NCBI RefSeq assembly: GCF_008727865.1
Contig: NZ_VTWU01000001.1
Span: forward strand, 930,001-994,000
Source of the DNA: Hymenobacter busanensis
Lineage (GTDB): Bacteria > Bacteroidota > Bacteroidia > Cytophagales > Hymenobacteraceae
Length of the DNA: 64,000 nt
Direction of reading: 5' to 3'
Position 1 is the first letter of the stretch. Every line of letters begins with the position of its first letter. A model generated the notes under the pieces. The model was not told the DNA's origin and searched no databases. It was given only the letters and a program-made list of their open reading frames with translations. A program made the translations under genes and the position numbers. This document shows, one piece after another, positions 4,275 through 6,658 of this stretch.

Positions 4275-4300
4275 AAAAAAGCCCGGCGCAGGCCGGGCTT
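4275..4300 (-). terminator. Intrinsic terminator after msrA
   Basis: Stem 4279-4287 with 4292-4300 (AAGCCCGGC and its complement) and loop of four bases. The A-run at 4275-4280 becomes a U-run on the minus strand, so it ends the msrA transcript. Confidence 0.8.
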
Positions 4301-4337
4301 TTGAAAGACAGTGGTTTATGCGAAAACGTAAACCGGA

Positions 4338-4883
4338 CTAATCGGCCGAAACGCGGGGCTTCAGCTTGTCGGCAAACACCTGCCGCACTTTGTCGACTTT
4401 GGGCTTCACCACAAACTGGCAGTAAGGTTGCCCGCCGTTGAGGTTGAAGTAGTTCTGGTGGTAGTCCTCGGCGGGGTAGAACACCGACAGCGGCAGAATC
4501 TCGGTGACAATGGGCTGGGGGAAAGCATGGGCGTCGTTGAGTTTCTGCTTGTATTCCTCGGCCAGGCGCTTCTGTTCAGCATTGTGGTAGTAGATGCCCG
4601 AGCGGTACTGCGTGCCCACGTCGTTGCCTTGGCGGTTGAGCGTGGTGGGGTCGTGGGTTTTCCAGAACACCTCCAGCAGCTCCTCGAAGCTAATTTTCGC
4701 AGGGTCGAAGGTGATTTGCGCTACCTCGTTGTGCCCGGTCAGGCCCGAGCAGACTTCTTTGTAGGTAGGGTTGGCAATGCGTCCGCCGGTGTAGCCCGAA
4801 ACGACTTTCTCTACGCCGTTCAGGTTCTGAAACACGGCCTCGACGCACCAAAAACAGCCGGCCCCAAAGGTTGCTAATTCCAT
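4338..4883 (-). CDS. msrA: Peptide-methionine (S)-S-oxide reductase
   Basis: Reduces the S-epimer of methionine sulfoxide in oxidised proteins. ATG at 4883 gives MELATFGAGCFWCVEAVF, with the catalytic Cys10 in the invariant GCFW motif; total 181 residues, normal for a single-domain MsrA. Further hallmarks are YTGGRIANPTYKEVCSGLTGHNE and the substrate-pocket Tyr region TQYRSGIYYHNAEQK. Cys13, Cys45 and Cys155 could act as recycling cysteines. There is no signal peptide or fused MsrB domain. The frame is open upstream of 4883 but that sequence belongs to the intergenic repeat array. Confidence 0.96.
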   Translation of the reverse strand: MELATFGAGCFWCVEAVFQNLNGVEKVVSGYTGGRIANPTYKEVCSGLTGHNEVAQITFDPAKISFEELLEVFWKTHDPTTLNRQGNDVGTQYRSGIYYHNAEQKRLAEEYKQKLNDAHAFPQPIVTEILPLSVFYPAEDYHQNYFNLNGGQPYCQFVVKPKVDKVRQVFADKLKPRVSAD

Positions 4884-5016
4884 AGTAAGTGGGAAATGAA
4901 AGGAGTGGTAGGATAATAAGCGGAAAACCAGCCGTAAGGTTTCCCCAAGACAGCCCGGCGCTGCTAAACCCCTTGGCTCACGACGCAGCGCAACCATCCA
5001 CAGAACCGAAACCCCC

Positions 5017-5250
5017 GTGTCGACTACTCGGCAAGCACGTACTGAGATGCAAAAGCGCCGGTCGACTACTCGACAAACACTTCCACACAATCCGAAACCC
5101 CGTGTCGACTACACGACACGGATTTTCGGGAATACACATGCCCGTGTCGACTGGACGACAGCCGCTTTCTGTTCTGCAAATGGCCCTGTCTACTAGTCGA
5201 CAGTATCCCCACGAATGCCAACAGCCCGTGTCGATCGGTCGGCACGGGCT
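5017..5250. repeat. Array of six palindromes with 42-bp period
   Basis: Six degenerate palindromes of the form (CCCG)TGTCGACTnnTCGACA occur with TCGAC-type cores starting at 5020, 5062, 5105, 5147, 5189 (TCTAC variant) and 5231. Intervals are 42, 43, 42, 42 and 42 bp. Each core is a small inverted repeat; unit 3 pairs 5100-5107 with 5114-5121 and unit 6 forms a longer hairpin (about 5220-5251). The roughly 20 bases between cores are not alike. The array fills the gap between msrA and the dehydrogenase gene, whose coding end it touches. Both strands give open frames with a 14-residue period only because the palindromes repeat every 42 bp. Confidence 0.85.
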
Positions 5251-5271
5251 GTTGCAGCATAGGAAGCCGAA

Positions 5272-6162
5272 TTAGCGGCGGAAGCGGCTGGCTACCACCA
5301 GCTCCTTCGAGCCGGCCGTGTGCTGGTAGAAACCTTCGCCCGACTTCACGCCCAGGCGGCCGGCCATTACCATGTTCACCAGCAGCGGGCAGGGGGCATA
5401 CTTGGGGTTGCCAAGGCCTTCGTGCAGCACGCGCAGAATGGCCAGGCACACGTCCAAGCCGATGAAATCGGCCAGCTGCAGCGGGCCCATCGGGTGAGCC
5501 ATGCCCAGTTTCATGACCGTGTCGATTTCTTCTACGCCGGCCACACCCTCAAACAGGGTGTAAATGGCCTCGTTGATCATCGGCATCAGGATGCGGTTGG
5601 CCACGAAACCGGGGTAGTCGTTGACCTCCGTCGGAATCTTGCCCAGCTGTTTCGACAGCTCCATAACCTGCTCGGTCACGGCGTCGGAAGTAGCGTAGCC
5701 GCGAATGACTTCCACGAGCTTCATCACCGGCACCGGGTTCATGAAGTGCATGCCAATCACGCTTTCGGGGCGCTTGGTAACGGCCGCAATCTTGGTGATG
5801 CTGATGCTGCTGGTATTGGAGGCCAGAATGCAGCCGGCGGGCGTAAACTCATCGAGCTGGCGGAAAATCTGCAGCTTCAGGTCCACGCTTTCGGTGGCGG
5901 CTTCCACCACCAGGCCCGCGTCGCGCACGCCTTCCTGAAGCGAGGTAGAGGGCCGCAGCCGGCCCAGAATCGCCGTTTTGTCGTCTTCCGACAACGCCCC
6001 TTTGGCTACTTGCCGGTCGAGGTTTTTGCCAATGGTAGCGAGGCCTTTGTTGAGGTTTTCGAGATTGAGGTCAATCAGCGTGACCGGGAATCCATACTGG
6101 GCAAACACGTGGGCAATACCATTGCCCATGGTGCCCGAGCCAATGACGGCAACGTTCAGCAT
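5272..6162 (-). CDS. 3-hydroxybutyryl-CoA/3-hydroxyacyl-CoA dehydrogenase
   Basis: NAD-dependent dehydrogenase that interconverts 3-hydroxyacyl-CoA and 3-oxoacyl-CoA in beta-oxidation or butyrate metabolism. ATG 6162 gives MLNVAVIGSGTMGNGIAHVF, the Rossmann GxGxxG motif at the N-terminus; 296 residues, near the family's 280-290. The catalytic His is in GMHFMNPVPVMKLVEV (His139), with SNTSSISIT before it and PGFVANRILMPMINEA opening the helical C-terminal domain. It is a stand-alone dehydrogenase, not the FadB/FadJ fusion. It may end in the hairpin formed by unit 6 of the 42-bp array. Confidence 0.93.
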   Translation of the reverse strand: MLNVAVIGSGTMGNGIAHVFAQYGFPVTLIDLNLENLNKGLATIGKNLDRQVAKGALSEDDKTAILGRLRPSTSLQEGVRDAGLVVEAATESVDLKLQIFRQLDEFTPAGCILASNTSSISITKIAAVTKRPESVIGMHFMNPVPVMKLVEVIRGYATSDAVTEQVMELSKQLGKIPTEVNDYPGFVANRILMPMINEAIYTLFEGVAGVEEIDTVMKLGMAHPMGPLQLADFIGLDVCLAILRVLHEGLGNPKYAPCPLLVNMVMAGRLGVKSGEGFYQHTAGSKELVVASRFRR

Positions 6163-6496
6163 GCGGGGAAATAGAAGGGGAGGAGGAAAAGAGCGGGCGG
6201 CAAGGCACTGGCCGCCCGGCAAAGCTACACGAAAGCCCTGCGCCACCCAAGTTGCGCGGTGGCTACCCCAGCGGAATGGATGTAGTAAAACCGGCGGCCG
6301 GCAGAAAAGTTTAGGTGCATGATGTATAAGGGTATAGCTATGTTTTTGAAAAAATATCTTGCCCCGTTATATCCTTTTGTACAACCCCGCGTACAAACCC
6401 GCAGAACGCCGCGACACGCCACCCGCAAACAGGATGGAACCGGGTCGCGAGGGTTTTGCAAACGTCCACACCCTCACCTAACTCTTTTCGACAACC
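6163..6496. other. Intergenic region between divergent genes
   Basis: About 330 bases separating the dehydrogenase from a small membrane protein gene. It contains an AT-rich patch (about 6310-6390) likely to hold promoters for one or both sides. I could not place a convincing -33/-7 pair. Open frames here lack recognisable protein features. Confidence 0.5.
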
Positions 6497-6658
6497 ATGG
6501 GCAATCTGCTGTACCTCATTGCTGTTGTGCTCATCATCATCTGGGCACTCGGCTTCCTCGGCTTCAACAGCTTTGGAATGGGCAATCTGATTCACATCCT
6601 GCTGGTCATTGCCATTATTGCCATCATCCTGCGTTTGATACGCGGCGGCACGGTCTAA
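6497..6658 (+). CDS. Lmo0937-family small membrane protein
   Basis: 53-residue protein starting MGNLLYLIAVVLIIIWALGF. It has two hydrophobic segments (about residues 3-21 and 32-47) joined by a GFNSFGMGNLIH linker and ends with LIRGG. This matches the Lmo0937-type small membrane protein pattern found widely in Bacteroidota, often as stress-responsive genes; the function is unknown. It is a single-gene unit followed by a strong terminator. Confidence 0.8.
   Translation: MGNLLYLIAVVLIIIWALGFLGFNSFGMGNLIHILLVIAIIAIILRLIRGGTV

Follow-up and report, generated by a model that had tools for sequence, protein, structure and literature searches.

What kind of element is formed by six evenly spaced palindromic units between msrA and a dehydrogenase gene of Hymenobacter busanensis? 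The units lie in a 64-kb stretch of DNA (the window), and an earlier note, made from its sequence alone, had read them either as binding sites of one dimeric protein, aligned on one side of the helix, or as RNA hairpins. The array and the two genes that enclose it comprise the following features:

5013..5250, no strand assigned: whole array, six units with a 42-bp period (core copies and inversion-centre fit)
5013..5033, plus strand: unit 1 core, centre 5025.5 (core copy and centre fit)
5055..5075, plus strand: unit 2 core, centre 5067.5 (core copy and centre fit)
5098..5118, plus strand: unit 3 core, centre 5110.5 (reached from unit 2 by the 43-bp step)
5140..5160, plus strand: unit 4 core, centre 5152.5 (core copy and centre fit)
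5182..5202, plus strand: unit 5 core, centre 5194.5 (core copy and centre fit)
5219..5254, minus strand: unit 6, centre 5236.5, a terminator-like hairpin that follows the dehydrogenase gene (inverted pair and centre fit)
4338..4883, minus strand: msrA, peptide methionine sulfoxide reductase (Pfam PF01625, E = 6.9e-68)
5272..6162, minus strand: 3-hydroxyacyl-CoA dehydrogenase gene (PF02737, PF00725; start at the methionine of MLNVAV)

Copies of the TGTCGACTAGTCGACA-like core begin at positions 5013, 5055, 5098, 5140, 5182, and 5224, with steps of 42, 43, 42, 42, and 42 bp. Inversion centres, fitted with steps restricted to 41-43, fell on the same grid with identical steps, and their pairing score of 38.2 compared with 21.7 ± 2.3 (maximum 28.1) in 60 base shuffles. 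Core starts and inversion centres thus confirmed the six units, with one 43-bp interval, that had been read from the sequence. Unit 6 is a hairpin with 16-nt arms that are 94% complementary and 4 nt apart, in register with the array. Unit 5, judged by eye, reads flipped, its better-matched half being opposite to that of units 2-4. Mean unit-to-unit identity over five units (terminator unit excluded) was 82% in the 16-nt core versus 42% in the 18-nt stretches that separate the centres. The distance from the msrA start to the array is 130 bp.

A repeat detector revealed no second cluster in the 64-kb window and zero clusters in a control of 400 kb obtained by shuffling the sequence of a relative. 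When the core motif was searched genome-wide, as the earlier note had proposed, 14 matches with at most two mismatches were obtained versus 18 for a backward-read control. Nine of the 14 fell within the array, where three of the six sites were matched on both strands, and five lay outside. Membership of a REP/BIME family was rejected on these counts (nine of 14 matches inside the array, total below the control), as was an operator of a one-factor regulon (five matches outside the array against the control's 18). In DNA searches, the only other match to the array in the genome was its own inverted repeat, and none occurred in seven other genomes of the GTDB genus; a search of PLSDB gave no match either. 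Identity of the MsrA protein to that of other genomes reached 90%.

The same locus was compared in relatives using 108 msrA loci, a set in which several species are present twice because two collections were used. The dehydrogenase gene lay directly upstream of msrA on the same strand in 87 loci; among the others, 19 showed no dehydrogenase match in the fetched stretch and in two the genes were too far apart. Arrays were present in 11 of the 87 intergenic regions, including that of the window, and were counted as ten distinct arrays because those at loci L050 and L234 look alike. In the remaining 76 regions, six of which were shorter than 130 nt and unscanned, an array was not found, which indicates that the array is dispensable. 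Eleven of the 13 regions longer than 350 nt contained an array (exceptions: L258 and L264), and the sole signal in shorter ones was a weak 22-bp chain in L209. Arrays, where present, had approximately 5-7 units.

All arrays at the msrA locus had a period of 42 ± 1 bp, with cores that were mostly unlike one another. For example, L023 has CCGCTTCGAGAAGCGG, to which the core of L255 is related, L050 has TTGCGAGTACTCGCA, and L230 has TTGCACGSSCGTGCAA. The earlier note had held that free spacing together with an unconserved core in relatives would argue for a random or decayed duplication; spacing was kept, conservation of the core mostly was not. One core is common to genomes G016 and G100; although hardly any alignment is left between their spacers, all steps in both arrays fit 42. 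Cores occurred in both orientations within one array, for example in L255 and L247. In L255, a core 16-mer also occurs as a perfect reverse complement that keeps even the mismatched outer pairs, which suggests that sequence rather than pairing was copied. Core identity exceeded between-core identity in eight of the ten arrays, the exceptions being L230 (0.54 vs. 0.53) and L246 (0.35 vs. 0.39). Spacers of L050 were also alike (between-centre identity 0.63). In L246 and L257, the 42-bp period was present and the palindromic grid was not above the null. Palindromes were mainly a trait of the msrA locus, being present in seven of its ten arrays versus nine of 52 arrays overall (z of at least 3 in these nine). 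The period is therefore the common trait, and the palindrome, by which the element had initially been defined, is not. REP-like inverted repeats of the form AACGTCATGCTGAGC...GCTCAGCATGACGTT were also observed in the msrA region of two other Hymenobacter-type genomes (L049:2311-2412 and L029:1030-1140).

The sequence used to quantify period preference was Hymenobacter-type, comprised 2.04 Mb with 390,898 nt intergenic, and included 40 stretches fetched for their msrA gene; genes predicted by codon usage were masked. Intergenic clusters numbered 16 at a period of 42 bp, two at 41, three at 43, and 13 at 21, with seven at 63, ten at 84, scattered others, and none at 38-40 or 44-47. When G016 was left out, seven remained at 42 and seven at 21. 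Repeats inside predicted genes were spread over multiples of 3 without a preference for 42 (19 at 42, 31 at 39, 18 at 48). In the lag spectrum of 45 arrays, mean excess identity was 0.275, 0.349, 0.270, and 0.323 at lags of 21, 42, 63, and 84, with shoulders of approximately 0.03-0.04 one base off the peaks and values of at most 0.01 at all other lags. A 21-bp unit (excess above 0.15) was detected in 37 of the 45 arrays; those at the msrA locus were mainly pure 42. Distance pairs in 52 arrays numbered 437 at 42 versus 21 at 41 and 25 at 43, although this list was hand-picked from the clusters of a search that admitted periods of 22-120, and the 2.04-Mb spectrum is consequently less biased. The suggestion that the spacing corresponds to four helical turns fits these data: the spacing recurs in other species and at other loci with unrelated cores, and steps of 41 or 43 bp are few. 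Odd-turn spacings (31-32, 52-53) were absent, and units showed no internal A/T wave of 10.5 bp (z -1.7); all-base power at 10.5 bp had a z of 2.7. A general 42-bp spacing of intergenic hairpins was rejected, with 12 neighbouring pairs at 42 versus ten each at 32 and 46.

Detector scans (periods 22-120) covered 400 kb of H. busanensis (contig C3, 530001-930000), 400 kb of G016, and 100 kb each of G020, G003, G028, G005, and four genomes of other genera. G016 contained eight arrays including that of msrA, all intergenic and each with its own motif. H. busanensis had one further array (L143, steps of 40 and 41 bp), G028 had two at the detector threshold, G005 one weak 38-bp cluster, and G020 and G003 none at threshold. 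The other genera yielded one 42-bp and one 63-bp cluster (G009, G013); after gene masking, no intergenic cluster at 42 or 63 was left, and three at 21 and one at 43 were. In 20 kb around msrA of 40 further genomes, three clusters at msrA passed the threshold and one 59-bp cluster occurred elsewhere; the msrA arrays of L246 and L247 were detected among these genomes only at a weaker threshold. Four arrays, all intergenic and with periods of 41-43, were found in 80 kb of G071. Two other repeats were encountered. G016 carries a long CRISPR-like array with a 65-bp period (L151:5169-9146), and a Cyclobacteriaceae contig carries approximately 24 copies of a 21-bp tandem that is open on both strands (L115:4786-5415). 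The latter was set aside as another kind, though it places a 21-bp unit length outside Hymenobacter as well.

Among 1205 intergenic regions of at least 100 nt, 21 held a cluster: 15 of 761 between tandem genes, four of 299 between divergent genes, and two of 145 between convergent genes. Tandem or divergent regions accounted for 19 arrays of at least four units in 1060 regions, and both convergent cases were runs of the heptamer GTTGTCA. In G003, such runs start at the stop codons of two genes and are followed by a terminator-like hairpin (L174:8450-8533 and L174:15719-15812). Below detector size, G016 has two sets of three near-identical 42/43-bp units with convergent genes on either side (L161:2297-2422 and L152:10849-10975), whose terminal inverted repeats are TGTACC...GGTACA and TGTAGAA...TTCTACA; the position rule therefore has exceptions. 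Predicted start codons were 44 to 876 nt away from the array (median 140, n = 23), most arrays lying approximately 80-200 bp upstream.

Arrays recurred in several species at msrA, at ligA, near the methylmalonyl-CoA mutase gene, and at the gene for a protein of approximately 225 amino acids. Those at msrA and ligA were located directly behind the terminator of the preceding gene. At ligA, four of 30 loci had an array, with one motif common to G016 and G070 and another to G071 and G072; G090, G100, and G093 had a terminator-like hairpin alone. In the vicinity of the methylmalonyl-CoA mutase gene, G016, G071, and G028 had arrays with a core that, judged by eye, is related.

The gene for the 225-residue protein was first met beside one of the G028 arrays. 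Judged by inspection, an array lay directly upstream of 29 of 43 loci of this family (L309-L338 and L339-L351). In the first 30 loci, 19 had a 42-bp array in this position and five of the other 11 were gene fragments (L327-L330, L336); L319, whose array is approximately 1.2 kb away, was scored as without. Thirteen more loci, obtained by profile search, included ten with an array. A comparison of 29 of 38 family loci with 19 of 1203 intergenic regions gave a Fisher p of 4e-38, with orthologues treated as independent, the five fragments and two heptamer runs dropped, and msrA loci that had been fetched on purpose in the background. H. busanensis itself has five family matches. Among the four examined, C3:4605 and a gene on C6 had an array (at about 5393-5690 of C3 and 12780-13010 of C6), and a gene on C4 and the fragment at C3:907222 had none. 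The family occurred in 36 of 150 genomes sampled from the GTDB family, in two of six genera, and was missing in three of eight genomes of the GTDB genus of H. busanensis. Although G016 is rich in arrays, it encodes a single, distant member with an array upstream (L347), so that sequence-specific reading of every array by this family is excluded.

The protein matched no Pfam family at E up to 0.001, and its NCBIfam hit, the PQLLE family, reached 15.8 bits (E = 0.0086) against a cut-off of 80. AlphaFold2 predicted an all-helical model (mean pLDDT 83.1, pTM 0.52) without a PDB fold match at E up to 0.001, and defence and plasmid searches with the family found nothing. A single-sequence search of PDB sequences retrieved the HK97 major capsid protein at E = 0.00015. 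Kinship with this protein was rejected because a 19-member profile gave E = 0.33-0.38 and no fold match was obtained; in view of both observations, we regard the hit as a chance likeness of a helical, alanine-rich sequence.

These surveys established a common ruler that is independent of motif, a position relative to genes, recurrence at the same loci across species, and a link to one protein family. Together they point to a previously undescribed element of Hymenobacter-type bacteria in which spacing takes precedence over sequence. Our preferred reading, to which we give a little less than an even chance, is that the arrays are helically phased upstream elements that form a nucleoprotein structure at a promoter, with phase under selection and motif drifting. 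Units that repeat every 21 or 42 bp, or two or four turns of B-DNA, would present equivalent points on the same side of the helix. Proteins might then assemble cooperatively along that face, or the DNA might be shaped in register, and the resulting structure could insulate or tune the promoter. Selection would keep the spacing as the repeat sequence of each array drifts and is homogenised within the array. A phase constraint is favoured because drifted spacers keep their length, because the tolerance is one base, and because the periods are multiples of two helical turns; array position favours a promoter role. Confidence stays below one half because of the missing odd-turn spacings, the missing 10.5-bp A/T wave, and the private motifs. 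Helical phase alone fails to explain a restriction to multiples of 21, and a private motif per array argues against one protein that reads sequence.

The main rival, which we consider unlikely yet serious, is a neutral minisatellite, in which a unit of 21 or 42 bp arises by local duplication, copy number then rises and falls, and nothing is selected. Recombination or template switching between cores would homogenise and flip units, and the ruler would be a product of the copying mechanism. Concerted evolution within arrays, motifs private to each, and absence from most relatives all agree with this scenario, as do cores that face both ways in one array (L255, L247) and the arrays whose spacers are similar too, such as L050. 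It does not readily account for spacers that have little likeness left and still keep their length to within a base, nor for a ruler that is confined to intergenic DNA when in-gene repeats of the same genomes lack it. Recurrence in several species at msrA, ligA, methylmalonyl-CoA mutase, and the family gene likewise speaks against it.

Two readings at the level of the transcript were also considered. A protein-coding repeat was rejected. Between units of 44 arrays no codon-position bias was found (combined p = 1), in agreement with the earlier view that the 'RHG' peptides on both strands are spurious; the 3-bp harmonic in arrays was depleted (z -3.2), and the occurrence of 41- and 43-bp steps implies that the ruler is not one of codons. 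Open frames were in excess (108 in 45 arrays versus 34.1 in base shuffles, with at least one in 42 of the 45), which was not taken as evidence of coding because repetition at a multiple of 3 yields the same excess. The other reading, that the units are duplicates of the dehydrogenase terminator acting as serial hairpins in the transcript, appears improbable. In seven of the ten msrA arrays, the first array centre was 42 or 43 bp away from the terminator and thus in register with it, a result that is partly circular since the fit allowed steps of 41-43 and its start range was set around the terminator. Averaged over these ten arrays with their different cores, units also share the terminator's frame, A-rich at -16 to -14 with C at +12 and T at +13 to +15, a hint that units at this locus originated from the terminator. 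In eight arrays, however, right arms shuffled between units paired as well as the real ones (279 paired cells versus 290 ± 6 in shuffles), so that no compensatory changes were evident, and 12 double-sided changes compared with an expected 19.6 ± 3.2, which weakened the hairpin alternative. Folding per unit was weak in ten arrays, with array means in sense of 0.0 to -2.5 relative to base shuffles; L247 and L255 were close to zero, and windows shifted by half a unit often equalled or surpassed the units. Moreover, positions 4300-6500 had no Rfam match at E up to 1, hairpins have no need of a one-base ruler, and most arrays at other loci lack palindromes. Missing compensation, weak folding, and the Rfam result led us to reject RNA hairpins kept by selection.

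Ordinary operators, with each array a cooperative site cluster for its own sequence-specific repressor or activator, are a very unlikely explanation: pseudo-palindromic cores in either orientation at helical spacing upstream of predicted genes would suit dimer sites, but a separate protein would be needed for each array (eight in 400 kb of G016), motifs at one and the same gene vary between species, and the window core is not enriched elsewhere in its own genome, which together with the private motifs also counts against the single dimeric protein on a single palindrome that had originally been envisaged.

A more far-reaching version of the phased-element reading, which we regard as doubtful, is a code of chromosomal architecture in Hymenobacter: phase itself would be the signal, arrays of any motif, with two or four turns per unit and placed ahead of promoters, would seed a nucleoprotein filament, and the family of approximately 225 residues would be part of the machinery or be controlled by it. 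Neither duplication alone nor sequence-specific operators readily explain a period held to within a base over freely changing sequence. If phase is selected, the arrays provide naturally occurring material for testing the use of DNA helical phase by bacterial promoters; if the cause is mutational, they would reveal that DNA is copied to a 21-bp ruler, visible in intergenic and not in coding DNA.

A literature search, covering the openings of abstracts, returned nothing recognisable as such arrays, and several known systems share part of their traits. CRISPR arrays likewise combine repeats with spacers of constant length. The repeats described here are degenerate in comparison (core identity 0.82 in the window array, short of near-identical repeats, so that the initial view of them as too degenerate for a CRISPR array held), and in some arrays, such as L050, the spacers are alike. 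Plasmid iterons and partition centromere arrays are tandem sites spaced by approximately two helical turns, with a motif private to the replicon and frequently with the gene for their binding protein as a neighbour. The Hymenobacter arrays resemble them in tandem arrangement, spacing, and private motifs; unlike them, they are chromosomal, several per genome, and in many cases adjacent to housekeeping genes (msrA, ligA, methylmalonyl-CoA mutase), and the linked family is without a recognised DNA-binding domain. Like REP/BIME elements, they are intergenic, partly palindromic, and often near gene ends; in contrast to these, the window palindrome is not dispersed over the genome and array spacing is constant. 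With minisatellites and VNTRs they share tandem, homogenised units that vary between species, and their copy number and presence differ between relatives as in minisatellites. They differ from these in that intergenic units cluster at lengths of 21 and 42 irrespective of sequence, and in that cores at the msrA locus are, in those same eight of ten arrays, more alike than the stretches between them.
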